Shown: piece by piece, positions 36,075 to 54,353 of the stretch
How the letters are laid out: each line of letters begins with the position of its first letter
Numbering within the stretch: the stretch's first letter is position 1
From: Fusobacteriota bacterium
GTDB taxonomy: Bacteria; Bacillota; TC1
Direction of reading: 5' to 3'
DNA: 64,000 bases
Assembly (NCBI GenBank): GCA_009773805.1
Contig: WTXA01000002.1
Coordinates: 124,001 to 188,000 of the forward strand
Program-made: the position numbers and the translations under genes
The notes under the pieces: model-generated
Databases searched by the model: none
Seen by the model: only the letters and a program-made list of their open reading frames with translations
What the model was told of the DNA's origin: nothing

Positions 36075-37238
36075 TCATGTATTTAGATTTTTTTTATATT
36101 TGCAATATTCACTTATTAAGCAAATGTCGCATCTTGGATCAGCTGTACAAACCTGCCCATAGCCATCAGAACAGTAACTCCAAAGCGCTGCATCAATAAA
36201 AGCCTTGGTATACCCAGTTCTTTCTGACAATTCATCAATAATATGAATAGACTCCAATTCCCCAGCATTAATACTATTTGAATATGCTAGCCTTTCCCTA
36301 CCTAGAATTCTTCTTATGTGAACATCAGGTTTCGCTCCATCAATGCCAACATTTCTCAAGAATTCCCAAGCAAGTGCATAACCTATATATCTCAACTTAT
36401 ACTTGCCACTAGATAGTATTGTAGCAATTCTAGATGCTGAATATGATTCATAGAAATTATCTAGGCTACCATAGTCCTTCTCTATTAGTTCCAGCATATG
36501 GATATTATCCTTCAAACTAATCATTTGTTTTTTAGTAGCAATATTTCCGCATTTAAGTTTGAATATTCCATTATAGAAATAATCATCTGGTATATTTAAT
36601 ATTTTCACCCTATCGTAATCAAAGAATAGCTTATCTATTTCTTTAAGCTTAGATACTATTTTGCTCCATTTAGTTTGGTTGCTCAATTGGGCATAGACTA
36701 AACCTCTAATATTCTCACTAAAGCTAAATATCTTCCCTTCATTTCTTGCTTTAATATTTTCCAAATGAGACAAGTCATCAAAATATATGTTCTTATCTGA
36801 TAGGTATTTGCAGATAAGATTTATAATTGTTGCTTCTTTTCCATGATTGTTTGAACTTGTATTAAAGTATTCATCATTTTTAGTTGTCACTATATTGGTC
36901 GAGTTTCCAGGAGATAGCTCTTCATCCAAATATGAACTATATATACCATTAATCCATTCACCAACAGTTGCTCCTTTATTGCTAACTGTTCCCGTGTATT
37001 TATAGTTTTCGCCTACATATTCATATAGTCCTGTTCCTCGATTTATGAAAATGTGAAGATAGTTCTTATAGTTTTTTATTCCGTTATTGGTTATGTTATA
37101 GCAGTAGTCACTTGGTATTATATTATCTATCTTCTTACCATATTTTATATTAACAATATTTTTGATTTGTTTTGAATCAAATGTTTTTCCAAAATCTGCT
37201 TTATTAAAACAATTTTTTATTGCTTCAAGATCTGTCAT
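36075..37238 (-). CDS. HhH-GPD/endonuclease III-like protein with extra N-terminal domain
   Basis: The protein is 387 residues. The C-terminal half is an endonuclease III/MutY-type HhH-GPD domain with LRYIGYALAWEFLRNVGI before the catalytic-Asp segment AKPDVHIRRIL (about 301). A 4Fe-4S ligand set, C-x5-C-x2-C-x5-C, lies near 363-380. The N-terminal half carries the segment IIPSDYCYN and a GTGLYEYVGENYKY-like stretch, which I recall from wHTH-type domains in restriction-associated proteins. The fusion and its place next to the Qat genes suggest defence-related base excision or modified-base recognition. Glycosylase activity is not proven. Confidence 0.72.
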   Translation of the reverse strand: MTDLEAIKNCFNKADFGKTFDSKQIKNIVNIKYGKKIDNIIPSDYCYNITNNGIKNYKNYLHIFINRGTGLYEYVGENYKYTGTVSNKGATVGEWINGIYSSYLDEELSPGNSTNIVTTKNDEYFNTSSNNHGKEATIINLICKYLSDKNIYFDDLSHLENIKARNEGKIFSFSENIRGLVYAQLSNQTKWSKIVSKLKEIDKLFFDYDRVKILNIPDDYFYNGIFKLKCGNIATKKQMISLKDNIHMLELIEKDYGSLDNFYESYSASRIATILSSGKYKLRYIGYALAWEFLRNVGIDGAKPDVHIRRILGRERLAYSNSINAGELESIHIIDELSERTGYTKAFIDAALWSYCSDGYGQVCTADPRCDICLISEYCKYKKNLNT

Positions 37239-37497: not shown

Positions 37498-38238
37498 TTA
37501 ATCGTTTATGTCCTGCTCCAGTAGTTTTTTTTGATTTGCTTGCAATTGCTCGAAAACATGTTCTTTAGATATTTCCCACAAATCACAAAGTTTATCAGAT
37601 ATTCTTATTGCCTCCCATGGCATAATTACGTTTGATCCAAAATTTGTAAATGGACCATCAGATTCTGGAATCAACTTATCTATTGGGATTTTTTTAATTA
37701 TCGAACGGCCTCTTGCACTATTAATCATAGTAGGATTAACACTAAACCAACAACCCAATTCATTTGCTTGTTCCAGTTCTTCCATTGTGCCTGAAAACCA
37801 ATGTAATATAGGTATGCAATTATTATTATATTTTCTTAATATTGAAAGAACTCTTGTTGCTGCATTTCTTGAATGAATGCTTAGAATTTTCCCTCCTGTT
37901 TCTTGACATGTAATTATAGTATCGGTAAAAATTGACTCTTGCAGAGAAAATGTTTGTTTATATTTTTCAGAACCATCAATACCTATCTCACCAACAAATC
38001 TCACTTTTGGAATGGCCTCTAGCAACAAAGAACGTTCTTTATATTTATATTCAACTACTTCGGGATGTAAACCTACAGCTGTTTGTATATTTTTATATCC
38101 AACAAATAATTGAGATGTTAATTGCCATGCTCTTGGGCTTGTTGTAACAACTAGTGTAAAGATATTTCTTTTTGCTACAACAGGAAGCATCTGTATTGAA
38201 TTTTTATATAAATCTAAATGACAATGAAAGTCCATCAT
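37498..38238 (-). CDS. qatD: QatD, TatD-family metal-dependent nuclease
   Basis: This 246-residue TatD-type hydrolase has metal ligands HCHLD (residues 4-8), a Glu in FVGEIGIDG (about 80), a His in ILSIHSRNA (about 117), HWFSG (about 146) and the Asp in PESDGPF (about 190). TatD enzymes are 3'-5' exonucleases or endonucleases. Its start overlaps the qatC stop by four bases (ATGA). As the last gene of the Qat operon it is the expected nuclease component, known to be needed for anti-phage defence. Confidence 0.88.
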   Translation of the reverse strand: MMDFHCHLDLYKNSIQMLPVVAKRNIFTLVVTTSPRAWQLTSQLFVGYKNIQTAVGLHPEVVEYKYKERSLLLEAIPKVRFVGEIGIDGSEKYKQTFSLQESIFTDTIITCQETGGKILSIHSRNAATRVLSILRKYNNNCIPILHWFSGTMEELEQANELGCWFSVNPTMINSARGRSIIKKIPIDKLIPESDGPFTNFGSNVIMPWEAIRISDKLCDLWEISKEHVFEQLQANQKKLLEQDIND

Positions 38239-39506
38239 ATTACACCTTGTAGTTTAATAAATTCTCCAAGCTCATCTAATCCTCTTGAAATAACATTCTC
38301 AAAGTGATTTCTTTCATTTATTTCTGAAAAAAATAAGTGTCCCGTAGTTAATTGTTTAATACCGTCATTTATATATTTTAGATATGTTGAGGCTACAGAA
38401 GAAACATCCTTTGAATCTACACTTGTAATCTGTGTATAAATATAACCTTTGAATGTTGAATCTGCTAACCCGGATTTATGAAAAGCAGCTCGTCTTACCA
38501 AACAAGGCACACATACTCCGCAATGAGTCAAATTATGGCGTTGATATTTCCCGCAACTTACAGAATCATTTATCAATTTTTCCAGCAACTCCTTGTCTGA
38601 ACATTCTTTTAACATTTCACCTTTTGTTTTAAATTGATACGGTAATACTAAATTAACATTTAACCCTAAATGCTTCCACATTAACTGTAGTCCACTCATA
38701 TATATTGGATGTGTTGTCTTTGTACTAAGACTTCCCAACCTCATTGGACCTAAAGGAATATTCAAACTAATAAATCCATTTTCAGGAACATATATATTTG
38801 TTGATCGATTCTCAGTCTGAGTTATTACAGAGGATGCTATTAAAGCAAATGCAAAGAAGATAATTGATCTAGCTCTAGTTGACTTTTCTGTATTTCCACG
38901 ATGTCTTATTTTTGCACTCCATTGGCAATGACGATCTCCACCATCTAATGCTAATGCATACTTCTTCTGTGTAATTCGATCACCACGTGCAATTCTAGAT
39001 ACGAAAATTGGAGTTTTGTTCATCGATTTTAAATCAATAGCTCCTACCAAACTATCAACCCCACCTGAAAGAAGACAAACACAATCCCCTTGCATTGGGT
39101 ATTTTAGTACTTTTGGTTTTAGGACAATAGGATCTGATTCATAAAAGTGAAGAGACCAAAAATCACCAGTCAGAAATCTCAACGTATTTTCAAGTTCATT
39201 ACGCTTTTCTACCCATAAAGAAGGTTTTTGAAGATAAACATGAAGTTCAATGTTTCTTGTCCATCCATCTGAGCTATCACTTCTTATAATAGCTTCATCA
39301 GCTGCAGAAACTGATAGTGCAAAAGTTGTAAAATCTATAATTTCGGTTGATGGATTTAATCCATTTTTCTCGATATCTTTTAGCAATCTTGGTGCTATAT
39401 GACCAATTAATGGATTTTTAGAAACTGAATACAACATAAAATATTTCGCTTCTTCTTCCAAAATATCTGGTATAGTTGATTCTGGACAACATATTACTTT
39501 TTTCAT
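38235..39506 (-). CDS. qatC: QatC, QueC-like ATP-pyrophosphatase
   Basis: This 423-residue protein has a PP-loop SGGVDS (about 145-150) and a C-terminal QueC-type zinc site (CGKYQRH, then HCGVCVPC, about 310-332). QueC makes preQ0, but in the Qat system a QueC-like protein is part of the defence module, and its product or target is not settled. ATGA overlaps join it to qatB upstream and qatD downstream. Confidence 0.9.
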   Translation of the reverse strand: MKKVICCPESTIPDILEEEAKYFMLYSVSKNPLIGHIAPRLLKDIEKNGLNPSTEIIDFTTFALSVSAADEAIIRSDSSDGWTRNIELHVYLQKPSLWVEKRNELENTLRFLTGDFWSLHFYESDPIVLKPKVLKYPMQGDCVCLLSGGVDSLVGAIDLKSMNKTPIFVSRIARGDRITQKKYALALDGGDRHCQWSAKIRHRGNTEKSTRARSIIFFAFALIASSVITQTENRSTNIYVPENGFISLNIPLGPMRLGSLSTKTTHPIYMSGLQLMWKHLGLNVNLVLPYQFKTKGEMLKECSDKELLEKLINDSVSCGKYQRHNLTHCGVCVPCLVRRAAFHKSGLADSTFKGYIYTQITSVDSKDVSSVASTYLKYINDGIKQLTTGHLFFSEINERNHFENVISRGLDELGEFIKLQGVI

Positions 39507-40342
39507 AGTGCCCCCTCATAAACATAAAAAGTGTTAGATAATGCATCTTGCAATATATCGTTAAGTTGATTTGGTGTAAAATTTTCACTGCTTTCTCGTA
39601 GTTTTTCAACTTGGATAAAAATCTCCGATTCCAAATAACTATGCATTTCATTCATCCTTGCAACCTTGATTTTTGGTGCAAGTGAAGACTTTTCAAAGGA
39701 TTGACCTATATCTAAACACAATCTATTAAATGCTTCATAACTTAAAAATGATTCAATTATGTTCCAAATATCATTATCTTTTAGGTTAAGCAAATCGATT
39801 TGCGGATTATTTATGATTAGATTTTCCAATGCTTGAGCCATTGATTCTCTACACGATATTTCATCAATGCTCCCTCCAAACGGAGTAACCATATTGATGA
39901 TTTCATCTAAAATTTCATCAGCACTTGCATTTCTTGAAGTTAATGTAGATACCCATTCATTTATCTCTGGGTCATTACCTTCTCTAGCTGATCTTAAGAC
40001 ACCAAATAATGCTGACGCTGATTTTGTCGAAGTGCGCATTCTATTTGCTACATTTCGAGCACCACCCATACCAGTGCGAGAGTAATGTCCCAAGGCTTTC
40101 CTTAGTGAATCACTATCCCCTGATTGTGCATAATTATTTAATGCACGTCGCGTAGCACTGAATCTTCTTGGCGGAGCGATGTTAATTTTAGTATTATCAA
40201 TATCCTCATCCTGTAAACCTAAATCATTTTCTTTTGATGCATCTGAAGATGTTGTACTCCCAGGCATTTCAATTTCATCCAACCACGGAGGATCAAAAGA
40301 AACTCCCCCATTTGGACCATTACTTGATGTTGATGTTCCCAT
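39503..40342 (-). CDS. qatB: QatB
   Basis: A 279-residue protein whose N-terminus, MGTSTSSNGPNGGVSFDPPW, is the recurring QatB pattern. It continues with a helical domain (ATRRALNNYAQSGDSDS, then GHYSRTGMGGARNVANRM). No enzymatic motif is visible. It overlaps the qatA stop by one base (TAATG) and qatC by four, so the four genes are one translational unit. It is required for Qat defence in published work, with unknown biochemistry. Confidence 0.88.
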   Translation of the reverse strand: MGTSTSSNGPNGGVSFDPPWLDEIEMPGSTTSSDASKENDLGLQDEDIDNTKINIAPPRRFSATRRALNNYAQSGDSDSLRKALGHYSRTGMGGARNVANRMRTSTKSASALFGVLRSAREGNDPEINEWVSTLTSRNASADEILDEIINMVTPFGGSIDEISCRESMAQALENLIINNPQIDLLNLKDNDIWNIIESFLSYEAFNRLCLDIGQSFEKSSLAPKIKVARMNEMHSYLESEIFIQVEKLRESSENFTPNQLNDILQDALSNTFYVYEGAL

Positions 40343-42210
40343 TATTTTTTCCTCTCTAATGCTTTTATTGCATTTTTTACTACTTGTGGTGTTTGACTAT
40401 CTTCAAACCATTGTTTTAGCATTCTTTCAGCCCATTCTTCTTCACGTAAATAGGGAATGATTAAAGCTGATCGTTTATTTGATGGTATTTCACTTAGAAA
40501 GCCTACAAAATTAACTCCTAGAACTGAATGAGCTTTAGTAATATGCAAAGCTTGTATTAATGTTTCTGGCTCCCACTGTGTTGCTCTTGCTTGTCGCATA
40601 ATTCTATTAAGTATTCGCTCTGCTTCTATTTCTCCAATTGCTTTTAATTGATCAATGAGAGGTTGAATAATATTCTTTGCCTCTAATAACGCATCTAGTA
40701 ACGCCCTAGCTTCTTGTGAAATTTCATCGTAGCCGGCTAATATAATAGCTTTATCACGACTTAAATAGAGCAATGGTCTAAGATCCTTCTCCCCTAATGT
40801 AGGACTTAACTTCAACCATTCTGAAACAAATGGACTTTTCCAACTTTCATCTAAAATCTCTGCCTGTTCTCCTTTTGATAAAGCGGTCTCAATATCTACT
40901 AATATATTACACCTTCCATCTTCATGGTTGATATTTTTGACTAAGTATTCAAACGCTGCTGGTATTGCACATCTCTCAAACAACTGTAACTTAATCAGCT
41001 GATCAAAAGCAATTGTTATACCTTGAGATTTTGCGATTGTATCTCGAATCAATAAATTATTTAAGAAACGTTTTATTAATCTAGGATTACCTCCAATTCT
41101 ATCAGATGACACCATTATCCCAGCAATCTGATCAGCTATATCAATCTCCATATTAAGTTTAGTAGCATCATCACCAAAAGCTCCTTCTATCGTTTTCCTA
41201 GTTAACCCTCCATCCCAAGATTGGCTAACAGCTTTTAATATGACTTTTTCAGCACGAAAGAGTGCTTCTTCACTAATTAATTGCTTTCTTGAGGCTAGCT
41301 CGGCTAATAATAACACTAAATAACCTTTTACTTCAGCCACTCCAAGTCTTGGAACTCTTAGAGGTATTTGTATCAATTTATCAAAATAGCTAGTAACATG
41401 TTCATCGGATATATCAACATTAATAAAATGTGAACGTACAGAATTTCTTATCATTTGTTCATCTGCAGCAATAATAAATGCTGTATTCGGAATAAACAAC
41501 AAAAGACGCATTGCTTCAAGTGTAGAAATAGCAGTTTCAGGTAGACATCGGTCAAGGTCATCAACTAAAACCACCAAAGTAATTTCAAGCTCTTTTAATA
41601 ATTCAGAAAAAGATAACCGTAAATTCTCAATTTCTTGTGGTAATGATTGAACTTTCCTTTCTTTTAGCAACCCTGGAAGTTCAGGTTTTAAAGCTAAATA
41701 AGCATCTTTTAATCTATCCAAATCCTCAGTTGATGGGTTTCCATCTGATTTAACCAAACCACCTACAGCGCCAATAATTGCTCCTAATGGTCCTCCAAGT
41801 GTTCCTCCAAGTAATGCGCCTGAAGCAACTGGTGTTGCAAGTTTAGCTAAGTGTAGCCAATTTACTCTCTTTGCAAAATCCATTGCTTTTTCAATCCCGC
41901 TTTTTTTTCTTTCGGCTTCCGCTAACAATTTGTCTGAAACAGCTTGTAGTAAAGCTATTCTAGCATCTTCATAACCTTGATAGAGCCAAGCATTAAATTC
42001 AAGAAATATATATTTATTATTTGGTTCTGGATTGGATTCTCTAAGCGATAGACCTATCATTTTTACTAAAGAAGATTTACCCGCACCCCAATTTCCAGAA
42101 ATTCCAATTGAAATTGGTTCACCCTTTGATTGATGAACTAACTGTGCAGCTGTTTTTGCTACGACTGTAAAGTTTAATAAATCTTTAGTTGTTTCGATAT
42201 CATTCCACAT
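40342..42210 (-). CDS. qatA: QatA, KAP-family P-loop NTPase
   Basis: This protein of about 622 residues has Walker A ISGNWGAGKSSLV (about 35-48), a glycine-rich hydrophobic insertion (LLGGTLGGPLGAIIGAVGGL, membrane-inserted in KAP NTPases) and Walker B LVVLVDDLDRCLPE (about 208-220). I chose ATG at 42210 because GAGGAG lies directly upstream; the longer frame starts at 42240. KAP NTPases are AAA-like ATPases often tied to membranes. It leads the Qat operon, 146 bases after hsdR on the same strand. Confidence 0.9.
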   Translation of the reverse strand: MWNDIETTKDLLNFTVVAKTAAQLVHQSKGEPISIGISGNWGAGKSSLVKMIGLSLRESNPEPNNKYIFLEFNAWLYQGYEDARIALLQAVSDKLLAEAERKKSGIEKAMDFAKRVNWLHLAKLATPVASGALLGGTLGGPLGAIIGAVGGLVKSDGNPSTEDLDRLKDAYLALKPELPGLLKERKVQSLPQEIENLRLSFSELLKELEITLVVLVDDLDRCLPETAISTLEAMRLLLFIPNTAFIIAADEQMIRNSVRSHFINVDISDEHVTSYFDKLIQIPLRVPRLGVAEVKGYLVLLLAELASRKQLISEEALFRAEKVILKAVSQSWDGGLTRKTIEGAFGDDATKLNMEIDIADQIAGIMVSSDRIGGNPRLIKRFLNNLLIRDTIAKSQGITIAFDQLIKLQLFERCAIPAAFEYLVKNINHEDGRCNILVDIETALSKGEQAEILDESWKSPFVSEWLKLSPTLGEKDLRPLLYLSRDKAIILAGYDEISQEARALLDALLEAKNIIQPLIDQLKAIGEIEAERILNRIMRQARATQWEPETLIQALHITKAHSVLGVNFVGFLSEIPSNKRSALIIPYLREEEWAERMLKQWFEDSQTPQVVKNAIKALERKK

Positions 42211-42356
42211 AAAACTCCTCTTTTCTACTACCATGAGCATATTTGTTAAATATTTAAGATTTGTAATACAATATTTATTTATTGATTTTAAAAATATTAT
42301 TTATATATATTTATAGAATAAATACTACAAGATGAATTGTAGTGTATTTGTAGTGG

Positions 42357-45300
42357 TCATAACTTAGACTCATTCTGACACATCAACTTAGTCTGCTCCA
42401 TAACAATATCAACAGCCTTAGCTGTCTTATCAGGCGGATAACCATACTTCTTTAGAAGACGCTTAATAGTCATCTTCATCTTAGCCTGAACACTATCACG
42501 AATAGCCCAGTCAACACTAATATTATTCTTAATTGACTGAGTCAAATCCCTGGCAATCTGCTTCAAAATTTCATCACCCATGATCTCCCTTGCTGACTCA
42601 TTGTCCGCTAGAGCATCATAAAAAGCCAACTCATCAGAAGTAAGCCCAGTATTCTCCCCTCGCTTTTCAGCCTCACTGATCTGCTTAGCAAGCTCAATCA
42701 ATTCCATTATGACCTGAGTAGTCTCAATAGCCCTATTCTGATATTTCCTGATAGCTGCTTCAAGTAACTCAGAAAACTTCTTAGACTGTACAAGATTACG
42801 TCTTGAGAATGACCTTATACTACCCTTAAGTAATCTATTAAGAAGTTCTACTGCGAGATTCTTCTGTTTCATACCTTTGACTTCTTCTAAGAATTCATCA
42901 GATAATATAGCAATATTAGGTTTTGAAAGTCCAACCGATTCTAAAATATCAACAACTTCATTTGAAGAGATTGATTTTGAGATTAACTGATTCAATTCAC
43001 TATCTAACTGCGAGGTAGTTTTCTTCTTATTATCCTCATTAATTATTTTAACAAGACTTGCTTTTACCGCTTTATGGAAGCCAATCTCTACATTTAATCT
43101 TTCAGCAACTTCAGTAGTAGCACATAGAGAATAAGCTCTCGCCATTTCAGTTACATGTTTGATATAGTCATTCTTTCTATCTTCTCTAAGTCCAATAATA
43201 TAGTCCATTGTCTCTACTATAGCTTTCATTTTCTCACTAGGTTTTCCTGTGAAGAACTTGCTGTAATCATGACCATGCAATATTTCCTTAATAAGATCAT
43301 ATTTTTCCAGCAAAACTTGGACTGCAACATCAGTATCAACTCCTGTAGTCTTTTTATCACTATCAGTATACTGCGACAATGCCGCTTTCAAGTTTTCAGC
43401 AATACCAATATAGTCAACAACAAGACCACCTTGTTTTTCTTTAAACACCCTATTAACTCTGGCAATTGCTTGCATCAGATTATGACCATTCATAGGTTTA
43501 TCAATATACATAGTATGCAAGCTAGGAACATCAAATCCTGTAAGCCACATATCTCGAACTATAACAATTTTTAATTCGTCATTCTTGTCTTTCATACGCT
43601 TTGCTAATGCTTCTCTGTTAGCTTTGGTTCCAATAAACTTCTGCCAGTCAGCTGGATCAGATGATGCACCAGTCATTACAATTTTTATTTTACCCTTCAA
43701 TAAATCATCACTATGCCAGTCTGGACGTATAGCTACAATTTCTTTATACAAATCTATGGCTATTCTTCTGCTCATGGCAACTATCATAGCCTTTCCGCCC
43801 TCGTTTTCCTGGGCATTGTCCCTCTTTTCGAAGTGTTCAACTATATCCTTGGCTATTTGTTTAACACGCTGATTTGCACCTACTATAGCCTCTAGTCTAG
43901 CCCATTTGCTCTTTAATTTTTCTTTTGGATTGTATTCTTGATATTCAGTTATCTCATCATATTCTGTATCTATATTTGGTTTAAGATTTTCTGGTAATTC
44001 AAGTTTTGCTATTCTGCTCTCATAGAATATCTTAACAGTTGTTCCATCTTCAACAGCTCTGGTCATATCGTATACATCAATATAGTCGCCAAAAACGGCA
44101 CGGGTATTCTTGTCAGTTAATTCAACTGGAGTACCTGTAAACCCAATATATGATGCATTAGGTAAACTATCTCTCATATACTTTGCATATCCGTACTTAA
44201 CATCAGCTTCATCATCAACTTTGACTATGTCAGCCCCAAATCCATACTGGCTTCTATGTGCTTCATCAGCTATAACAATTACATTCTTACGATCTGACAG
44301 AACTATACTCTTACCATATTCAACACCACTATCTGCTACTTTATCCATATTTTGATAAGATACCTCATCACCGATTAATTCATTGGTAAATGGAGCAAAC
44401 TTATGGATAGTGGTGAATATAATACCACCACTGGTACGATTGTTTAATAAATCTCTCAAATGAAGTCTATCCTCTGCTTGTACAGGAATACTTCTTAGAA
44501 TATCCTTACTCTTAAAGAAAGTGTTAAACAGCTGATCATCTAAATCGTTTCTATCCGTTATGACAACGATTGTTGGATTTTCTAGTTCTTCACTAATAAC
44601 AAGCTTTCCAGCATAGAATACCATTGATAAGCTTTTACCACTTCCTTGGGTATGCCAGACTACACCAATTCTTCTGTCTCCAGAATCCATTGTTGCTCGC
44701 TCTGTACTATCAACAGCTTTGTTTACAGCATGGTATTGGTGATAGCCAGCTAGTATTTTAGTTGTATCTTTACCATCACTTTGGAATAGTATAAAGTGCC
44801 TTATAATATCTAAAAACCTATCTCGTTGAAACATTCCCTTGATCAGCACTTCAAGTTGTGGGATAGACAAAGATGCTACATCATCTCCATCTATTGTCCT
44901 CCAGGCCATAAATCTATCTTCATCTGATGATAGTGTTCCTGCTCTTGCATTAACTCCATCACTTGTAACCATAAAAGAATTGTATGTGAATAATGATGGT
45001 ATTGTCATCTTATATGTCTGTAGTTGATTATATGCATCAGTTATATCAACATTTTCGTCACTAGCACTTTTAAGTTCAATAACAACAAGTGGTATACCAT
45101 TTGTAAAGGCTACAACATCTGGTCTTTTCTCTACTCCATGTTCAACGATTGTGAATTGGTTAGCTACCATGAAGTCATTATTCAAAGGTTTGTCAAAATC
45201 AAATACATATACCTTCTCGGTTCTGTAGCTTGCATCTGGTTGTCTGACTTGTACATCTATTCCATCTGTTATCATTTTATGGAATGCTTTATTGTTCATG

Positions 45301-45551
45301 ATCAGACTAGGACTTTTGGGTATGACAATTTGTTTGAAGGCGTCTTCAATTGCTTCTCCCAGCATATTGGGGTTTATTCTTACTAGTGCTTCTTTTAGTC
45401 TTTCATTTAGGATTACATCTCTATAATCCTTACGTTCCTGGTATTCACCATCTGGTGCTATATCAGGACCAAAGACTATCTCGTATCCTAGTTCTTCAAA
45501 CCATTCTAGTGTTGCTTCTTCTAAGTGGGATTCGCAGAAGTTATTTTTCAT
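42357..45551 (-). CDS. hsdR: Type I restriction endonuclease subunit R
   Basis: This protein of about 1064 residues has a PD-(D/E)xK nuclease region ([15 protein letters not shown], about 154) and a translocase motor with Walker [13 protein letters not shown] (about 299-306). DEAH in [12 protein letters not shown] (about 428) and GFTGTPVE follow, then helicase motif VI-like [14 protein letters not shown]. The long C-terminus contacts HsdM/HsdS. It cuts unmodified DNA after ATP-driven translocation. ATG at 45551 was chosen over GTG at 45566. An FRG-domain gene separates it from hsdS. Confidence 0.93.
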
Positions 45552-45568
45552 AATAAAACCTTTCACCT

Positions 45569-46498
45569 TTATTGATTAATCTTATCTTCAATATCATATT
45601 TATTATTTATGTATCTTTCTTTTACGTTATCAAAAATATCTTTGCAAATATTTTCTGTTTCAGGAAATAAATAGCTATTTATTATTCCCAATGATTCTAA
45701 ACTTTTTAATATTTTCTTTTTTTTATTAGAGGGTATTATCAACTCATAACTATTTTGATTATTCCATTCTGATAATTGATCAATTATTTGATATTGTTCA
45801 TAAACTTGAATAATTTCAATTTTATTAGGAAATATCATAAACATTCCTTGTTGTCTTTTTAATCTTTCATTATCCATTTCTGGTTTGAAAAAAATCGGCT
45901 TAGATAGTCTTTCAACTATTTCTTCTATTGGTATTTCTTCAGTTTTTATACCTTTCCAGTACTTTTTATTTTGAATATATTCTAAGTAATTTTTTAAAGG
46001 ATTTGTTGTAAACCATTGATAACTCATATCATAGATTGCATTTACAAATGGTGAATAGCTATTATAAATTTTGTTTTCATTTTCCAATATAACAATTACC
46101 TTACCATTAACTTTCACACCTTTTTCTTTCTTATCTTTACAAGCAAAAAACAAAGCAACTAGAGCATTAGTTGTAAAATCTAATAATCTTGTTGGAATGC
46201 CATAATGTTGAAAATTAACCATATTTTGTACAGGAAACCTATCATTATTAAATAGGTTAGGCATATTTAGTTTAGCTTCTTCCATCATTCTATTTTCAAA
46301 CATCAACCAACCATTATATTTATTTGCGCTTTCTTTTCTTCCAATAGCTGGCACTAATTCATATTTTTCATTAGAAAATCCTCTAAATATCTTTATATCT
46401 TTTCTTAGGACTGGATCTTTTCTTGGTGGAGTAATTCCTTCAATTTCGCGAATATAGTCTTCTAATGATTCTATTATTATTTCTTTTTTATTATCCAT
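45569..46498 (-). CDS. FRG domain protein inserted in the type I R-M operon
   Basis: This 309-residue protein has the FRG motif [20 protein letters not shown] (about 30-50) and a [13 protein letters not shown] segment (about 105-118), typical of FRG-domain proteins often found in mobile or defence loci. It lies 7 bases after hsdS and just before hsdR, so it is co-expressed with the restriction system. Whether it is a toxin, a guard or an auxiliary effector is unknown; nothing shows catalysis. Confidence 0.82.
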
Positions 46499-46505
46499 AC
46501 TGTTA

Positions 46506-47753
46506 TTACTCCTCTATTGGTATTCTTATTTCGCCAGACATTAGTTTTGGTAACAAAGTATCTCTAATACTTTCCAATTTTTGATTTTCAATTTCATTGT
46601 TCTTTATTTTTATCATTATTTTGGAAACTATGTAATGAAAATCATTTAAAACTTTATCTTCAGGTACTAATATCTTCATTCTTTTTATTACCTTTGAATT
46701 AACAGCTGTTGCTATTGATGATGTATTCCCCAGACTATCAAAATTAAAGTTTTTAAGAAAATAATATAAATACTCATTTATATTGTTTTTGTCATTTTTA
46801 AAATGTGCAATCGCTTCATTTGTTGTCACATCATCACTTGTTATAGAAATTCTTCCAATAGTTAATTTAAAACTTAATAAAACTGTTTCTGCTGGTATAA
46901 TTTTAATATTATGTTTACTAATGGCTTCTGACGTCAGTCTTTCATTGGTGTCAAAAATATATAAGCCAGACTTACCCATATCTGTAATTGATACCCATTT
47001 TACATCTTTTCGATCTTTTGAAAACCATATAGATTCTTTTCTAGGTGGTGTTTTACCAATTGATATTTCAAAGAAATTTTCTACGGGACCAACTTTCCAT
47101 CCTTTAGGAATCATACCTATTTCACTATCAAGAAATTCTCCTTCTTGAAAAGGTTCAAAATCTATAAACCAACTCTTATAAATTGCTTTTGCCATTTTCT
47201 CTAGATTTTTATTAATTTGATTATTAACTTCTATTTTTTCATCTAGGGAAGTTAGCATTTCGGATATTTTTTTTTGTACTGCAATAGCAGGTATTTTTAT
47301 TTTTATTGAATTTATCGCTCCTAAAAATAAGCACTTTTGTACAGACCCACTGCTATAACCCTCAACCTGACTTTTAAAATCATTGCTTAAAGTCATATAG
47401 TACAAAAATTCTGGCAAGATTTTACTTGTATCTGGCTTAATTATAGCTACACTTCTTTGGAATTCATAATTTAAGTTTCTATCTTTTATTAATGCACTTT
47501 CACCCAGTGTACCTACAGTTGTAATAAGTACATCACCAGTATCCATATTTGTTCGTTTATTCAATTTTGACATTGTATCCAAATCAATTTTTCTATCAGA
47601 TTCTTGGATTACAATTTGTCCATTTTTTATATTCTTTGCACTTAATAGATAACACTTTCCATTTATATTATTTTTAACAGTTGAATGAGTACCATCAGTT
47701 ATTTTAATTGCAACATCTTGTAAAGTTAATTCTTCCAAAATATTAAAACTCAT
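46506..47753 (-). CDS. hsdS: Type I restriction specificity subunit S
   Basis: The protein has 415 residues. Two target recognition domains are visible: LTLQDVAIKITDGTHSTV at the N-terminus and PKGWKVGPVENFFEISIGK in the middle. They are separated by the conserved coiled-coil spacer (LTSLDEKIEVNNQINKNLE, then MAKAIYKSWFIDFEPF), and a second spacer closes the C-terminus (SIRDTLLPKLMSGEI). It determines the bipartite DNA target. It starts 11 bases inside the end of hsdM. Confidence 0.92.
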   Translation of the reverse strand: MSFNILEELTLQDVAIKITDGTHSTVKNNINGKCYLLSAKNIKNGQIVIQESDRKIDLDTMSKLNKRTNMDTGDVLITTVGTLGESALIKDRNLNYEFQRSVAIIKPDTSKILPEFLYYMTLSNDFKSQVEGYSSGSVQKCLFLGAINSIKIKIPAIAVQKKISEMLTSLDEKIEVNNQINKNLEKMAKAIYKSWFIDFEPFQEGEFLDSEIGMIPKGWKVGPVENFFEISIGKTPPRKESIWFSKDRKDVKWVSITDMGKSGLYIFDTNERLTSEAISKHNIKIIPAETVLLSFKLTIGRISITSDDVTTNEAIAHFKNDKNNINEYLYYFLKNFNFDSLGNTSSIATAVNSKVIKRMKILVPEDKVLNDFHYIVSKIMIKIKNNEIENQKLESIRDTLLPKLMSGEIRIPIEE

Positions 47754-49224
47754 ACCCTATAGCCCCCAGTCTAAGCCTAATCTCATCCTCAAGATCATGA
47801 GATTTAAGGAATAACTCAGCCAACTCACCGGTTAACATAGACATCTTATCATCAAAAGGAATACCATCATCCACAACATCCTCAATACCAACATACCTAC
47901 CAGGAGTTAGAATATACTCATGACCCCTTATTTCTTCTAGTGATGCAGCCTTACAAAAACCCCGCTCATCCTCATAATCAGCATTACCATCTCTCCAATT
48001 ATGATAAGTACTATAAATCTTTTCTATATCCTCATCAGTTAACTCCCTGTGCTTACGAGTCTCCATATAACCCAACTTACGAGCATCAATGAACAAGATC
48101 TTATCCTTCCTATTCTCCTTGTTCTTAGACAAGAACCACAAACAAACAGGAATAGTCACATTATAGAAAAGATTAGGAGGCATACTAATAATACAATCAA
48201 CCAAACCAGCCTCAACAATATTCTTCCTAATCTCAGCCTCAGCCTTAGTAGAAGTTGACATAGAACCATTAGCCAATACAAAACCAGCCACTCCTTTAGG
48301 AGATAGCTTACTTATAATATGTTCAATCCAAGCATAATTGGCATTATTCTGTGGAGGTATACCATACTTCCAACGAACATCATCTTGACTCAATGAATAA
48401 TCACTAACATTAAAAGGAGGATTAGCCAAAACATAATCTGCCCTCAGATTCTTATGCAGATCATTACCAAAAGTATCAGCATCCCTTTCACCTAAGTTGC
48501 CGTCAATACCTCTAATAGCCAAATTCATCTTACACAATCTCCAAGTTGTAGCAGTATACTCCTGACCATAAATATGAATATTATCCTTCTTGCCTTGATG
48601 CTCTTCTACAAACTTTGCAGACTGAACAAACATACCACCAGAACCACAACATGGGTCATAGATTCTACCCTCAAAAGGTTCAATCATTCCAACAAGAAGT
48701 TTAACAATGCTAGGAGGAGTATAGAACTCACCTTCGCTAGAACCAAACTTACCTAAGAAATACTCATAAACTCTACCTAAAATATCCTGAGCTTTAGATT
48801 CCTTACTACCTAAGTTGAAAGAAAATAAGTCGATCAATTCACCAAGCTTTGTTTTATCAAGCTCTGGTCTAGCATAGTTTTTAGGTAATACGCCTTTCAA
48901 ATTTTTGTTTTCACGTTCAATTGCTATCATAGCTTCATCTATGATTTGACCTATGGTTGCTAATTTGGCACTTTTCTTAATAAAATCCCATCTGGCACTT
49001 GGTGGTACAAAGAAGATATTATCCTCTACATAAGCATCTCTATCCTCTTCAAAACCTTCTCCATCAGAAACTAGTTCTTCAAACTTTTCTTCAAAACTGT
49101 CAGATATGTATTTAAGGAATATAAGGCCTAATATAACATCCTTATAATCTGATGGTTGTAGATTGCCTCTTAGCTTATCTGCCATTTCCCATAGTTTATT
49201 TTCAAAGTCTAATTGTACTCCCAT
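47743..49224 (-). CDS. hsdM: Type I restriction adenine methyltransferase subunit M
   Basis: This protein of about 493 residues has an N-terminal LWEMADKLRGNLQPSDYKDV, motif I DPCCGSGGMF (about 188-197) and motif IV LANPPF (about 265), the N6-adenine methyltransferase set. ATG at 49224 was picked because GGAGG lies 5 bases upstream and MGVQLDFENKLWEMADKLRG is the usual start. It methylates the host copy of the hsdS target. First gene of hsdM-hsdS-FRG-hsdR. Confidence 0.93.
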   Translation of the reverse strand: MGVQLDFENKLWEMADKLRGNLQPSDYKDVILGLIFLKYISDSFEEKFEELVSDGEGFEEDRDAYVEDNIFFVPPSARWDFIKKSAKLATIGQIIDEAMIAIERENKNLKGVLPKNYARPELDKTKLGELIDLFSFNLGSKESKAQDILGRVYEYFLGKFGSSEGEFYTPPSIVKLLVGMIEPFEGRIYDPCCGSGGMFVQSAKFVEEHQGKKDNIHIYGQEYTATTWRLCKMNLAIRGIDGNLGERDADTFGNDLHKNLRADYVLANPPFNVSDYSLSQDDVRWKYGIPPQNNANYAWIEHIISKLSPKGVAGFVLANGSMSTSTKAEAEIRKNIVEAGLVDCIISMPPNLFYNVTIPVCLWFLSKNKENRKDKILFIDARKLGYMETRKHRELTDEDIEKIYSTYHNWRDGNADYEDERGFCKAASLEEIRGHEYILTPGRYVGIEDVVDDGIPFDDKMSMLTGELAELFLKSHDLEDEIRLRLGAIGYEF

Positions 49225-49248
49225 ATTGTCCTCCATATCAAATAACAT

Positions 49249-49687
49249 ATTACCTTGATTATATCATTTTTAATATATTAAGATAACTATTTATATAAAC
49301 ATATCTTATTCAAATATAATTTCTCTGAATATAAGTAATTTATTGGACATTAAAAGAATGTAATTATGACAAATAAATTTTCAATGTATGATAAAAACTT
49401 TATCTTACAAAAATATTTTAGAATTACTCAAAGAAAAAACATCCCAGAAAACTGAGATGTCTGCTATTTCAACTACCATTTCCTACATCATTACTGCTTC
49501 AAGGCATATTTTTAAATCATAGTACTGATATTACATTTATCTATCATTACTTTCTGAAATTTTCTATTAGATTATATATTTTTTTAAAGTTTATTGATAG
49601 TTAATTATTAGTACAAAAAAATAACTAACTAAAGATACACTCGCATACTTTCATTCAAAATATAATTCTTTACAGCAATCCTGATTA
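49249..49687. other. Intergenic region between hsdM and the PHP-ATPase pair
   Basis: No open reading frame of note. It holds the minus-strand terminator at 49433-49460, AT-rich sequence with a TATAAT box about 25-30 bases before hsdM, and nothing else I can name. Confidence 0.5.
49433..49460 (-). terminator. Intrinsic terminator of the PHP-ATPase pair
   Basis: On the minus strand, ACATCTCAG-TTTT-CTGGGATGT is followed by TTTTTTCTTT. The sequence closely resembles the terminator at 56111-56140 and a degenerate hairpin near 52541, so it may be a small dispersed repeat. Confidence 0.75.
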
Positions 49688-49924
49688 TTAAAAATCAGAT
49701 GAAACTGATTCTGTTAAAACAATTTTATCGGATATTTCTTTCACGAACTCATTAATATTATTAGTTTCTTCTTCTGAAAAATCACCTTCAAAATCAGCTG
49801 GTTCAATAACTTTTTCATTATAGAGAATATTGATCATTTTTATATAATCAAAATCATAATCTGTTTCTTCGTGATAAATTGAAACTTTTATATCCTCATT
49901 TTCTTTTTTGAATTTAAATTTCAC
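49688..49924 (-). CDS. Small acidic partner of the PHP-ATPase
   Basis: This 78-residue protein is strongly acidic, with a DYDFDYIKMINILYNEKVIE core and a charged tail (FEGDFSEEETNN). Its ATG overlaps the last base of the PHP-ATPase stop codon, so the two are translationally coupled. It precedes a terminator. No family recognised. The size and charge suggest a regulator or inhibitor of the ATPase-nuclease, but this is inference. Confidence 0.6.
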   Translation of the reverse strand: MKFKFKKENEDIKVSIYHEETDYDFDYIKMINILYNEKVIEPADFEGDFSEEETNNINEFVKEISDKIVLTESVSSDF

Positions 49925-52248
49925 TATAACTCCTCCCGAAAACTTTTTAAATTATATTTTTTTACTCTTTTCTTGATTGATGACTTTCCTCCATCTGTTA
50001 TTTCTGCAATATAATCAACCATAGTTTTTTCATCAATTTTCCCTTCCAAAGGACTAGACCTAATTATTATCTTATTATTATCATTTCTGCACAAAACAAC
50101 ATTTTGAGCATCACCTAGCATAGGTATCGTAGCATTATGTGAAACGAGTATAATCTGTTTTTCTGTTTTAATCTTCTTGATAGTTTTTATAAATCCTGTG
50201 TTTATATAATTGGTTGCTAAATTATCCTCAGGCTGATCAATGATGAGTGGTGCCATATCTTTTCGATATCCAAGTATAATATCAAGCAAAACTGCAGATT
50301 TCCATCCGGGACTAATGTCATTAAATTGTTTTCCTTCGCTTGTTTGAATCTTATAATCCTTTTTATTTATTTTTTCAAACTCAGTATAAACCTTTCTTTG
50401 GAAATCATCATAATCATCCACTTTGGGCTGTTTTTTAGAAAAGTTAGATTCAAATAGTGACTGTGGGGTTATATCTTCAAATACACTAATTGAATTTGAA
50501 CTTTTTAAATACTTATTAAAAGCTCTTAGAATTCCTTCTTTATTTAAAACAAATGAATTCTGTATACTTAGTTGATGTCCTGAAACCTCAATTTTGTTAG
50601 TTTCACAACTTATATCGTATTCAGAAATACGTGATAAAGCTTTATTGAAATTGCTCAAGCACGTTATATACTGAGCAAAATATTTTAAAAGGTTTTCTTT
50701 ATTTTGTTTTTTGCTTTGTGCTTCGTGATTCAAAGTAAACAATTCTTCATCAAGGTTGTCTTTATATTTTTCTAAGACACCTTTAATATTAAATTCAAAA
50801 TTTGATATTAAAAAAGCACTCTCTAATTTTTCTTTTATCTCATTGATGGCAACAGTTACATTATTAACAAAAGGATTTTTTGATATAAACGAGTCAATAG
50901 TATCAAGAACTTTAATATATTGGGTATACTGAGATTCAGACAAATAATAAGTTTCAATTGATTCATCTGAAGGTATAAACTGATTATACATATTTTCTTT
51001 AGTCTTTTGCTTTGTAATAAGTCTAGTAAACACAGGAATACGTATTAAGTTCCCTTCAAGAATATTGATTTGTTTTACCGATTTAATTAACTCAGATAAA
51101 TCAGTTTTTAATTGAACTAACCCCTGATTTATTTTTTCATCAATTGCATGATCAATAGGAAATACTTTTTGTATAATTTCAATATCATTAACATCTTTAT
51201 CATCACTTGAAAGTAAATTAATAATAAAATTCTGGTTAATATAGTGTGGTATAATTCCGGAAGGATTTATTACCGATAATTCATCAACATGGAAATATTT
51301 ATAGTTACTTTCTGAAAAGTCACCACTTATTTTTCGATAAATCGAATCAACAAAAAGTGTTTTTCCACTTGAAGATCCTCCTATTACAACATTTAGTCCA
51401 GGTGTTAAAGATGCATTAATACTTATTTTGTCATTATCTAAATTAGCATTACAAATATATTCGGCCCAATCTTTAGAGATTATGTCACAATATACAAATC
51501 TAGATGCTTCAGATAATGATAATCTTAATCCATCAAAAGTTGGTGTTGCATACATCCATGTTGGAAGAAATGGACCCGCATCCTTTGTTTTGGCATTCGG
51601 ATATTTTTTTGGATCATAGTTATCTGAGCAAGTAATAAGATTTACAAATTCATTTATTCCTAATCTTTTAAAATATTTCTGTGTTTCTTCAAGACCAATA
51701 TTACTTCTTGCTGTAAACCCATCAAATTGATTGTAGTAAATGCTACGTTCTAACGTTGAATCAAATTTCACTTCTCCGTTACGCGGAATGGATTTATCAA
51801 AAGTCTTATGTGATTGACCACCATGAGGCAGTAATATAAAATCAAATGAATCTAAGCTCTTAACAACTTCTTCTATAGTTGGTATTTTTGAAGTATCACC
51901 TGTTATTAATTTTTCGGGGTACAAAATATCTAATATTTTATTTACATTCGAAATCACTTCTTCGTCTATTGAGTTAACATTAAAAAAAATATGACAATGA
52001 TATGGAGATTCATTGGGGTAATTTCTGATATGTAACTCTGCACCCAATAGCACATGATTTGTTTTGGATATTAAATTCAAATATGCATCTTTATTAATCA
52101 TATTGTGATCTGTTAATGACAACATAAAAGGGGCATTTTGAGAAATTTTTTTCACTTTTAATAATAAAGTATCAACATCATAATTATTATTCGGCTCGTT
52201 GGGATTTTCAGACGTATGTATATGCAAATCAATATATATAGGGTTCAT
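49924..52248 (-). CDS. PHP domain-ABC/SMC-like ATPase fusion (TrlF-like)
   Basis: The protein has 774 residues. An N-terminal PHP phosphoesterase domain starts IYIDLHIHTSENPN, with further metal ligands in LLGAELHIR and CSDNYDP. It is followed by an ABC/SMC-type ATPase interrupted by a long coiled-coil region. Walker A is GGSSSGKTLFVD (about 288-295), Walker B is PLIIDQPEDNLA (about 664-672) and the H-loop is LVSHNATIP (about 701). Such PHP-ATPase fusions resemble TrlF-family proteins found in defence islands. A small coupled partner gene follows. I could not match the pair to a named defence system. Confidence 0.75.
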   Translation of the reverse strand: MNPIYIDLHIHTSENPNEPNNNYDVDTLLLKVKKISQNAPFMLSLTDHNMINKDAYLNLISKTNHVLLGAELHIRNYPNESPYHCHIFFNVNSIDEEVISNVNKILDILYPEKLITGDTSKIPTIEEVVKSLDSFDFILLPHGGQSHKTFDKSIPRNGEVKFDSTLERSIYYNQFDGFTARSNIGLEETQKYFKRLGINEFVNLITCSDNYDPKKYPNAKTKDAGPFLPTWMYATPTFDGLRLSLSEASRFVYCDIISKDWAEYICNANLDNDKISINASLTPGLNVVIGGSSSGKTLFVDSIYRKISGDFSESNYKYFHVDELSVINPSGIIPHYINQNFIINLLSSDDKDVNDIEIIQKVFPIDHAIDEKINQGLVQLKTDLSELIKSVKQINILEGNLIRIPVFTRLITKQKTKENMYNQFIPSDESIETYYLSESQYTQYIKVLDTIDSFISKNPFVNNVTVAINEIKEKLESAFLISNFEFNIKGVLEKYKDNLDEELFTLNHEAQSKKQNKENLLKYFAQYITCLSNFNKALSRISEYDISCETNKIEVSGHQLSIQNSFVLNKEGILRAFNKYLKSSNSISVFEDITPQSLFESNFSKKQPKVDDYDDFQRKVYTEFEKINKKDYKIQTSEGKQFNDISPGWKSAVLLDIILGYRKDMAPLIIDQPEDNLATNYINTGFIKTIKKIKTEKQIILVSHNATIPMLGDAQNVVLCRNDNNKIIIRSSPLEGKIDEKTMVDYIAEITDGGKSSIKKRVKKYNLKSFREEL

Positions 52249-52763
52249 TTTTGCCTCCTAAAACAATTAAATCATGTGTTGACCTGAGTATATAATTGAC
52301 ATATTTTTTCTCTTGCGCAAAGTCCACTTTAAACAGTGTATATGATTTAACATTTTCCCACTGTCATATGGTCCATTAAAATTATTTTTTGATAAATAAA
52401 TATTATATACATAATATATCGCAATAGAAAATAAAGCAATCAGATTCTTATAAAATATGTATAAAGAATTGATGATTTAGAAGTTTTGAGCTTGATAAAA
52501 TAGTTTTAGTTTCATTTTAAGTTTTATATGTATTAATAAAGACACCTCGGAAACTGATTGATTACAAAAATTAATTAAGGAATAATCTGGAATGAGTTCT
52601 GTAATAATTAGGTCTCATCCTTTTAATTCCCACTTTATTCTGCTCTTATAATATTTGCAAATATATTTTTATGTAGGTTAAACATAAAGTCTTCCATAGA
52701 ATCGAAAATTCTAATGTACAGCAACTCAGTCTTTTTATTCCAAAGAAGTTTTTCTTAACCATC
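52249..52763. other. Intergenic region upstream of the PHP-ATPase
   Basis: AT-rich with no clear gene. It contains GGAGGC just before the PHP-ATPase ATG, a degenerate hairpin near 52541-52560 related to the other two terminators, and a short minus-strand open frame (52633-52752) without a start or ribosome site that may be a gene relic. Confidence 0.4.
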
Positions 52764-53957
52764 TTATTCTACGTCCTCTTTCTTAAGTTCTTCAAACTTA
52801 GCCGCCATTGTTGGATTACCCCTGGTCAGCTTCTTGATAGTAACATCCTGGGCTTTATCATTTGCAAGACGGAGATTTCGGTCTGTGCCTTGCAATGCTT
52901 CCTTAGTCTTCTGTAAATGGTCAATAGACTTGTCAATTTCATCAATCGCTGTTTGGAACCTCTTCGAAGCTAGATCATAATTCTTACCAAAAGCATCCTT
53001 AAATATATTCAACTCATCCTCAAAATTAGAGATATCAATATTTTGCGCCTTCATTAGCGCAAGTTCAGTCTTGTATTTCAGAGTATTCTGGGCTGCATTA
53101 CGTAGTAGAGTAATCATCGGTATGAAGAACTGCGGACGGATAACATACATTTTAGGATAACGATGAGAAACATCAACGATACCACCATTATAAAGTTCAT
53201 TGCATGGTTCTAACAACGAAACAAGAATCGCGTACTCACATCCTTTTTCATTACGATCTTTATCAAGTTCCTTAAAAAAGTCTTCATTCTTCTTTTTAGT
53301 TGCAGTCTCATCGTTTTCATTTTTCATCTCAAACATAATTGAGATAAACTCTGTTCCATTATGGTCAGCCTCACGGAATATGAAGTCTCCTTTACTGCCC
53401 GTCTTCGAATCGTTATCCTTCTCGAAATATGCTATAGGAAATGCTGCAGAACGAATTCTAGAAAATTCAATTTCGCAATGTTGCTCAAGTGTTTCACCGA
53501 CCATTTTTGTCGACAATTTTGCTTTCATGTCCTTTAAACGTTCTATGGCATCATCACGATCTTTTATCTGAGTTTCATATTTTTCCTTAAGGGATGATTC
53601 TAGTAACTTCTTTTCAGTCTCCTTAGCTTCAAGGTCTCGTTTCAGATCATCACGTTCCTTCTCTATCGTACCCAGTGCCTCCTTGAGAGCCAACTGCTTA
53701 GCAATATCGACAGACTTCAACTCTTCCTTCAAGCGTTCAATCTCAACTTCTTTCATAGTAGCTTTTTTATCCATTTCGCTTATTATTTTTATCTCTGCGA
53801 GTTCAATGGCATTCCTTTTATCTTGCTCAGCAAGGACCAGTCTATCATTTAGAGCTTTATCAAAAGCCTCATTGCGAACTTGATTTAGTATGTCTGCATA
53901 ACCAGCCTCATCAAGATTAAATGTTTTGCCGCAATTCGGGCACTTTATTTCGTGCAT
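52764..53957 (-). CDS. DUF2130 domain protein with N-terminal zinc ribbon
   Basis: The protein has 397 residues. A zinc-ribbon-like start ([17 protein letters not shown]) is followed by a long coiled coil (about 30-170), then the DUF2130 domain. Its features include [22 protein letters not shown] and [10 protein letters not shown], an EL/E-x-K pattern like RmuC-type or restriction-fold nucleases, and [17 protein letters not shown]2130 proteins are widespread and uncharacterised; the nuclease fold is suggested, not shown. AGGAGG precedes the ATG. Monocistronic at the right end of the island. Confidence 0.75.
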
Positions 53958-54353
53958 ATCTATACCTCCTCAAATTTATTATTTATCTTATATACGAGAA
54001 TGAGCTTTTACTACTTATTAGTCTGATTAAGTATGAGACTCTAACAGCATATTATTATAGTTCATTTCACTAATAATACTATACCCTTTACTATAAAACC
54101 ATAAATTTAAACACATATACTATCTTAAAAAGGAAGGATTTTAGATCAGTCCAAGAATTGTTACAGTTATTACATATTTACCAATACAATAATCACAGAA
54201 TAAAGCGGAATTAAAAGGATTGAATCCCGTATAATACTGTATTCAGTCCCTATAGCAAGAAGTGGTACTTCAAAGAAAATAAAATATGTTAAATACATCA
54301 TCAAATTGATATAATAAAACTGTAAATAAACTAAGAAAAGAATGGTGATCAAT
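53958..54353. other. Intergenic region between DUF2130 and membrane protein genes
   Basis: Divergent control region with AT-rich sequence and no recognisable gene, RNA or repeat. It marks the right edge of the defence block. Confidence 0.4.

Follow-up and report, generated by a model that had tools for sequence, protein, structure and literature searches.

A PHP-ABC ATPase with a strictly linked small protein: a candidate two-gene anti-phage cassette in a Fusobacteriota genome

Two overlapping genes in a Fusobacteriota bacterium, one for an ATPase with an N-terminal PHP phosphoesterase domain and one for a 78-residue acidic protein, probably form one operon and a mobile anti-phage cassette, in which a small regulatory subunit would be indispensable to a Ppl-like nuclease-ATPase. 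We hold this interpretation, drawn from sequence and from analogy, with moderate confidence because the two genes are strictly linked, the PHP and ABC-ATPase motifs are intact, the small partner evolves under purifying selection, the distribution of the pair is sporadic, and it occupies exchangeable defense slots. An earlier note on this DNA had already proposed a candidate two-gene defense system, and the proposal is supported by the linkage of the genes (38/38 relatives), the lack of a match to any named system, the PADLOC matches of the neighboring genes compared with controls, and the presence of a Pycsar-like system in place of the pair in a sister genome. What had been a vague "ATPase family protein" thereby becomes a defined two-gene module, with a partner family that is missing from standard libraries. 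Positions below are those of the window, i.e., the whole 64,000-nucleotide stretch that was analyzed.

Gene pair and expression signals

Both genes lie on the minus strand and, as first read, overlap by a single base: position 49924 is at once the G of the ATPase stop codon TAG and the first base of the partner's GTG. The pair and its signals are as follows.

49924-52248, minus strand: PHP-ABC ATPase gene, 774 aa, ATG start, stop TAG
49688-49924, minus strand: small acidic partner gene, 78 aa, GTG start
49930-49937, minus strand: Shine-Dalgarno-like GGGAGGAG for the small gene, within the ATPase 3' end, 5 nt before the GTG (read from the sequence)
49437-49462, minus strand: tentative intrinsic terminator, 11-pair stem plus T-run, 225 nt past the small gene (weak evidence)

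Translation of the small gene is likely coupled to that of the ATPase because a strong Shine-Dalgarno-like site lies 5 nt upstream of its GTG, the stretch preceding which reads GGGAGGAGTTATA. The claim that the pair has its own terminator stood only in part: the hairpin at 49462-49437 exists and folds better than shuffled sequences (z -2.67, 3/200), but chance alone would produce about 1.3 terminator-like sites in the region scanned, which leaves it a candidate only.

The ATPase and its PHP domain

The fusion of a PHP phosphoesterase to an SMC/ABC-type ATPase, also an element of the first reading, was borne out by motifs of both halves and by the fold of the protein, for which an AlphaFold2 single-chain model (mean pLDDT 82) retrieved SMC, RecN, and Rad50 heads in Foldseek.

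51469-52248, minus strand: N-terminal PHP phosphoesterase domain, about aa 1-260 (30-member alignment, comparison with Ppl and TrlF, Pfam PHP in 10/30)
PHP residues: D7-x-H9-x-H11 (DLHIH), D47-H48-N49 (within TDHN), E71, H84/H86, H142, and D209, with Tyr211 in place of the usual last His
51358-51399, minus strand: Walker A GGSSSGKT, within about aa 284-297 (motif plus Rad50 Walker-A profile match)
50221-50253, minus strand: Walker B PLIIDQPEDN, about aa 666-676, flanked by the ABC signature and the H-loop
About aa 646-649: ABC signature SPGW
About aa 703-705: H-loop SHN

An alignment of 30 full-length members, in which the relatives are 42 to 55% identical to the window protein, has invariant PHP positions at DxHxH, DHN, E71, H84, H86, H142, and D209. 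Its ATPase half carries the GxSSSGK Walker A, the S-x-G signature, the IDQPEDNL Walker B, and the H-loop His. Pfam PHP was matched by 10 of these members (best 4e-5), the window protein itself being unmatched, and Pfam SMC_N or AAA_21 by 22 to 23 of the 30; a profile of the ATPase family also found Rad50 Walker-A regions. Where Ppl and TrlF have the final His of the PHP "DxH" motif, the pair family has an invariant Tyr (Y211; 51616-51624 encode aa 209-211), and it also has an extra invariant His, H86 (51991-51993). The sister proteins L089 and L113 retain DNH where the pair family has Tyr211. Since the last metal-ligand His is an invariant Tyr, the PHP chemistry of the pair family may differ from the canonical one, and Y211 and H86 may represent a shifted metal site.

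A conserved small partner directly behind the ATPase

The region after the ATPase gene was inspected in 41 loci, which represent about eight phyla. All 38 with a continuing contig (ATPase identity, 41 to 55%) have a small ORF of 69 to 91 aa directly 3' of the ATPase, starting between -17 and +9 nt from its stop codon except in one locus with a frameshifted ATPase, where the distance is +127 nt. The remaining three loci end at a contig edge, L040 among them after an apparent insertion element. The earlier note had made its proposal depend on conservation of the small gene next to PHP-ATPases elsewhere, and that conservation is what we found. Close pairs of small genes have dN/dS values of 0.04 to 0.18, i.e., the gene is under purifying selection, and these values together with the 38/38 conservation led us to reject a chance ORF. 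Each of the 18 genomes searched whole has one genuine copy, always adjoining the ATPase, and 396 Bacteroidota genomes contained no copies beyond the two known ones. Weak small-protein matches in two further genomes (G292 and G297) were rejected as other genes.

The small proteins align along their whole length, with M1 and Y27 invariant and K7, F25, L34, and E53 conserved in at least 90%; hydrophobic and aromatic residues (L3, F5, F25, Y27, and L34) predominate where conservation is strongest. The window protein is acidic, as originally described (78 aa, net charge -12, pI 4.3). Across members the net charge runs from -21 to +3, with 35 of 39 between -4 and -21, and in some the core has roughly no net charge. 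Because some partners are near neutral (L033, net -1) or basic (L031, net +3), the protein probably does not owe its function chiefly to acidity.

A single-chain model (mean pLDDT 85) predicts a beta-beta-beta-alpha-beta-alpha arrangement, for which a PDB fold search returned no match (best E, 1.4). No family for the small protein was found in Pfam, NCBIfam, PADLOC, or PHROG, and by sequence the partner appears to constitute a new family. None of the Pfam matches listed (25 of 31; 35 small proteins, E 0.1) was to an ABC-3C middle-component family. A match to DUF7806 (E 0.011) and the other weak ones among the matches listed were rejected as inconsistent between members.

Relationship to TrlF, Spaf_1101, and Ppl

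All ATPases of the pair family match the TrlF, Spaf_1101, and Ppl profiles, and TrlF (NF045780) is the best NCBIfam match for all 30 members. The window protein, to which the following bit scores apply, falls below each curated cut-off: 159 bits against 350 for TrlF, 96 against 475 for Spaf_1101 (NF045781), and 76 against 1000 for Ppl (NF042955). The PADLOC Ppl model matched it at 2e-18, in the C-terminal part. In a tree of 44 proteins the pair family is a single clade (support 100/100), which a 92/83 branch groups with L089, L113, L093, and L104, all with a small gene behind, as opposed to TrlF, Spaf, and Ppl; L093 and L104 are long branches and their position is unsure. A further ATPase, from a Campylobacterota genome (L183), also has a small partner. 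By sequence, then, the window ATPase is distantly related to TrlF, Spaf_1101, and Ppl and lies on a branch of its own.

Comparison of the window small protein with the partners of the divergent ATPases as single sequences gave nothing above shuffles; with a three-sequence profile the match was collinear (P 0.004-0.006, 1/200 shuffles), which is no more than suggestive of homology.

Ppl has the same order of a PHP domain followed by an SMC-like ATPase, a DQPED Walker B, and a defense setting, but it is a single gene, the plasmid copy that was inspected having no small ORF immediately downstream, and it keeps the last PHP His where the pair family has Tyr211. The resemblance of the window protein to Ppl is weak and, in database matches, confined to the C terminus of the ATPase. 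TrlF proteins likewise combine PHP and an SMC/ABC-type ATPase in one chain, the trlR-trlF-trlG genes forming a temperature-restriction locus of Photorhabdus (PMC7554251). However, the 92/83 branch separates them from the pair family, and no small partner was found behind TrlF-type ATPases in three phylum samples at loci with readable downstream ends, many of which have an SLFN_AlbA_2-like or other large gene there. Spaf_1101 aligns with the window protein in the ATPase half, but the full-length copy examined (L055) has no small partner. SbcCD/Rad50-Mre11 and RecN resemble the pair in coupling an SMC/RecN-type ATPase head to a phosphoesterase; in the pair, in contrast, the putative nuclease is PHP rather than calcineurin-like and is fused to the ATPase, and SbcCD and RecN are housekeeping functions whereas the pair is sporadic and a probable defense cassette. 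A PDB sequence search with Ppl and a TrlF did not find a solved structure.

The pair had initially been described as matching no named system. Consistent with this, there was no NCBIfam (2026) or PHROG match over the cut-off, and PADLOC (2023) matches were weak, partial, and mainly to the ATPase C terminus, so that identity with an already named system was rejected. A named two-gene PHP-ATPase system was not found in the open-access literature and PADLOC 2023, sources in which a recent naming could be missed.

Distribution and defense context

Among 61 related genomes searched, the pair family is present only in the window genome. It spans about eight phyla, a count that may include misbinned sequence because many relatives are MAG contigs. 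Phages, plasmids, and viral contigs yielded no copy of the family, only distant relatives.

The neighbors of the pair are enriched in known defense genes. At a threshold of 1e-10, 352 PADLOC families were matched by neighbors of the pair from 27 relatives (140 genes) and 14, mostly generic ATPases, by 131 control genes from elsewhere on the same contigs; these are counts of families and not of independent genes, and their ratio is therefore not a fold enrichment. The flanking matches include Hachiman HamA/HamB, Septu PtuA, AbiLi, AriA-like ATPases, bSEFIR, and R-M systems of types I, II, and IIG.

In the window, the pair has a type I R-M operon on one side and a DUF2130 gene on the other, exactly as had been noted, and a complete Qat operon follows directly past the R-M operon in the same island.

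52764-53957, minus strand: DUF2130 gene, upstream neighbor of the ATPase after a 515-nt gap
42357-49248, minus strand: type I R-M operon hsdM-hsdS-FRG gene-hsdR, downstream neighbor
47743-49248, minus strand: hsdM of this operon
45569-46498, minus strand: FRG-domain gene (PADLOC candidate PDC-S15), between hsdS and hsdR
37498-42240, minus strand: complete Qat operon (QatA 40342-42240, QatB 39503-40342, QatC 38235-39506, QatD 37498-38238)

In the sister genome G001 (L233, contig 12, 8000-27000) the same R-M operon and DUF2130 gene (88% identity to the window for hsdR and hsdM, 81% for DUF2130) frame different content of about 10 kb, namely, two Pycsar-type cyclases, a two-TM Pycsar effector, other genes, and DUF2130-like remnants. 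The interval is an exchangeable defense slot that holds the pair here and a Pycsar-like system in G001, and the swap captures such a slot at work within one genus.

G001 also carries a homologue of the FRG gene at the same place in the R-M operon. In the window, an OGG/HhH-GPD-like protein (36075-37238, minus strand; OGG match weak, E 3.8e-6) is encoded next to the Qat operon. Short dispersed repeats (52564-52759 and 54174-54252; 48 nt, 81%, mutually inverted) flank the DUF2130 gene, with many copies elsewhere in the window genome and in related genomes; these are possibly recombination sites for cassette exchange.

Proposed mechanism and alternative explanations

If the pair is an anti-phage cassette, the SMC/RecN-like ATPase heads would dimerize on DNA, probably at ends or other phage-replication structures, ATP binding or hydrolysis would gate the PHP domain, and the PHP domain would degrade or nick DNA, as reported for Ppl. 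The latter is reported to be a single-stranded DNA 3'-5' exonuclease that NTPs hold inactive, its triggers being nucleotide depletion and 3'-OH ends (PMC12904381). Its mechanism is the best guide to the pair, although resemblance is the basis for carrying it over. The small protein, whose synthesis is probably coupled to that of the ATPase, would bind the ATPase as an obligatory regulatory or structural subunit, and it is plausible that it restrains or directs the enzyme. Small subunits of other SMC-like complexes set assembly or gating, and we consider such a role likelier for the small protein than that of an antitoxin or DNA mimic.

In a toxin-antitoxin-like arrangement, the PHP-ATPase would be autotoxic and the small protein a dedicated inhibitor, released or degraded on infection. 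Strict linkage, cotranslation, small size, and a mostly acidic partner (35/39) would all fit, as would the need to keep a Ppl-like enzyme off in healthy cells (PMC12904381). However, inhibitors are less commonly encoded by the second gene of an operon, and acidity is not universal, as L031 and L033 illustrate. The 18 whole genomes and the 396 Bacteroidota genomes contain no orphan small genes, and the TrlF, Spaf, and Ppl relatives do without any small partner. We consider an antitoxin unlikely and rank a bound subunit above it because partnerless relatives exist, orphan small genes were not seen, and charge is not conserved. The acidity of most small partners, the window's included (pI 4.3), might instead suggest a DNA mimic whose charge lets it occupy the surface with which the ATPase-nuclease binds DNA, an idea that is very unlikely given that hydrophobic and aromatic residues dominate the best conserved positions, that core charge is near zero in some members, and that L031 is positive overall.

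The fold neighbors of the ATPase, RecN, Rad50, and SMC, would also be expected of an SbcCD- or RecN-like module for DNA repair or genome maintenance that merely resides in genomic islands. We find this improbable: a repair gene with a housekeeping role would be inherited vertically, whereas the pair occurs in one genome among 61 relatives and, across about eight phyla, in defense-rich neighborhoods and an exchangeable slot. Nor does it seem at all likely that DUF2130 acts as a third partner in one functional unit with the PHP-ATPase and the small protein. The DUF2130 gene does lie upstream of the ATPase on the same strand, a 59% identical homologue adjoins the pair in a Spirochaetia contig (L032), and a 56% identical one is directly upstream of a TrlF-type ATPase on plasmid pNP40. 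However, the gene is absent from the fetched flanks of the other pair loci, G001 retains it without the pair, and in the window it stands 515 nt from the ATPase.

A bolder version of the cassette interpretation is conceivable, though we advance it only tentatively. The pair would belong to a deep branch of PHP-ABC ATPases with a gating subunit of new fold, which would hold the nuclease off and turn a phage DNA or nucleotide signal into cutting. Several divergent ATPases would each have their own version of the partner, and together they would make up an undescribed class of two-component immune nucleases, as opposed to the single-chain Ppl. If the two-gene module as such is confirmed, the TrlF/Ppl-type PHP-ATPases, which are widespread with few members studied, would split into a single-gene branch and a small-subunit branch, and the latter would offer a handle on how an always-present SMC-like nuclease spares its own genome.

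Other gene arrangements around PHP-ATPases

Inspection by eye pointed to a second conserved two-gene layout, in which an SLFN_AlbA_2-like gene of about 385 to 420 aa often overlaps or directly trails a TrlF-type ATPase (L058, L069, L187, L188, L205, L208, L214, L215, L217, and L220). On the Lactococcus plasmid pNP40 (L178, 514-4384), the DUF2130 gene lies 46 nt upstream of the TrlF-type PHP-ATPase. A viral contig (L145, 7974-10166) has a shortened PHP-ATPase frame a few kilobases downstream of a PglX-like methyltransferase gene, again as seen by eye. Finally, a genome of the same genus as the window (G003, L234:5731-8395) has a different version of the pair, in which the genes for a PHP-ATPase of 790 aa and for an acidic partner of its own, of 104 aa, overlap by 23 nt.
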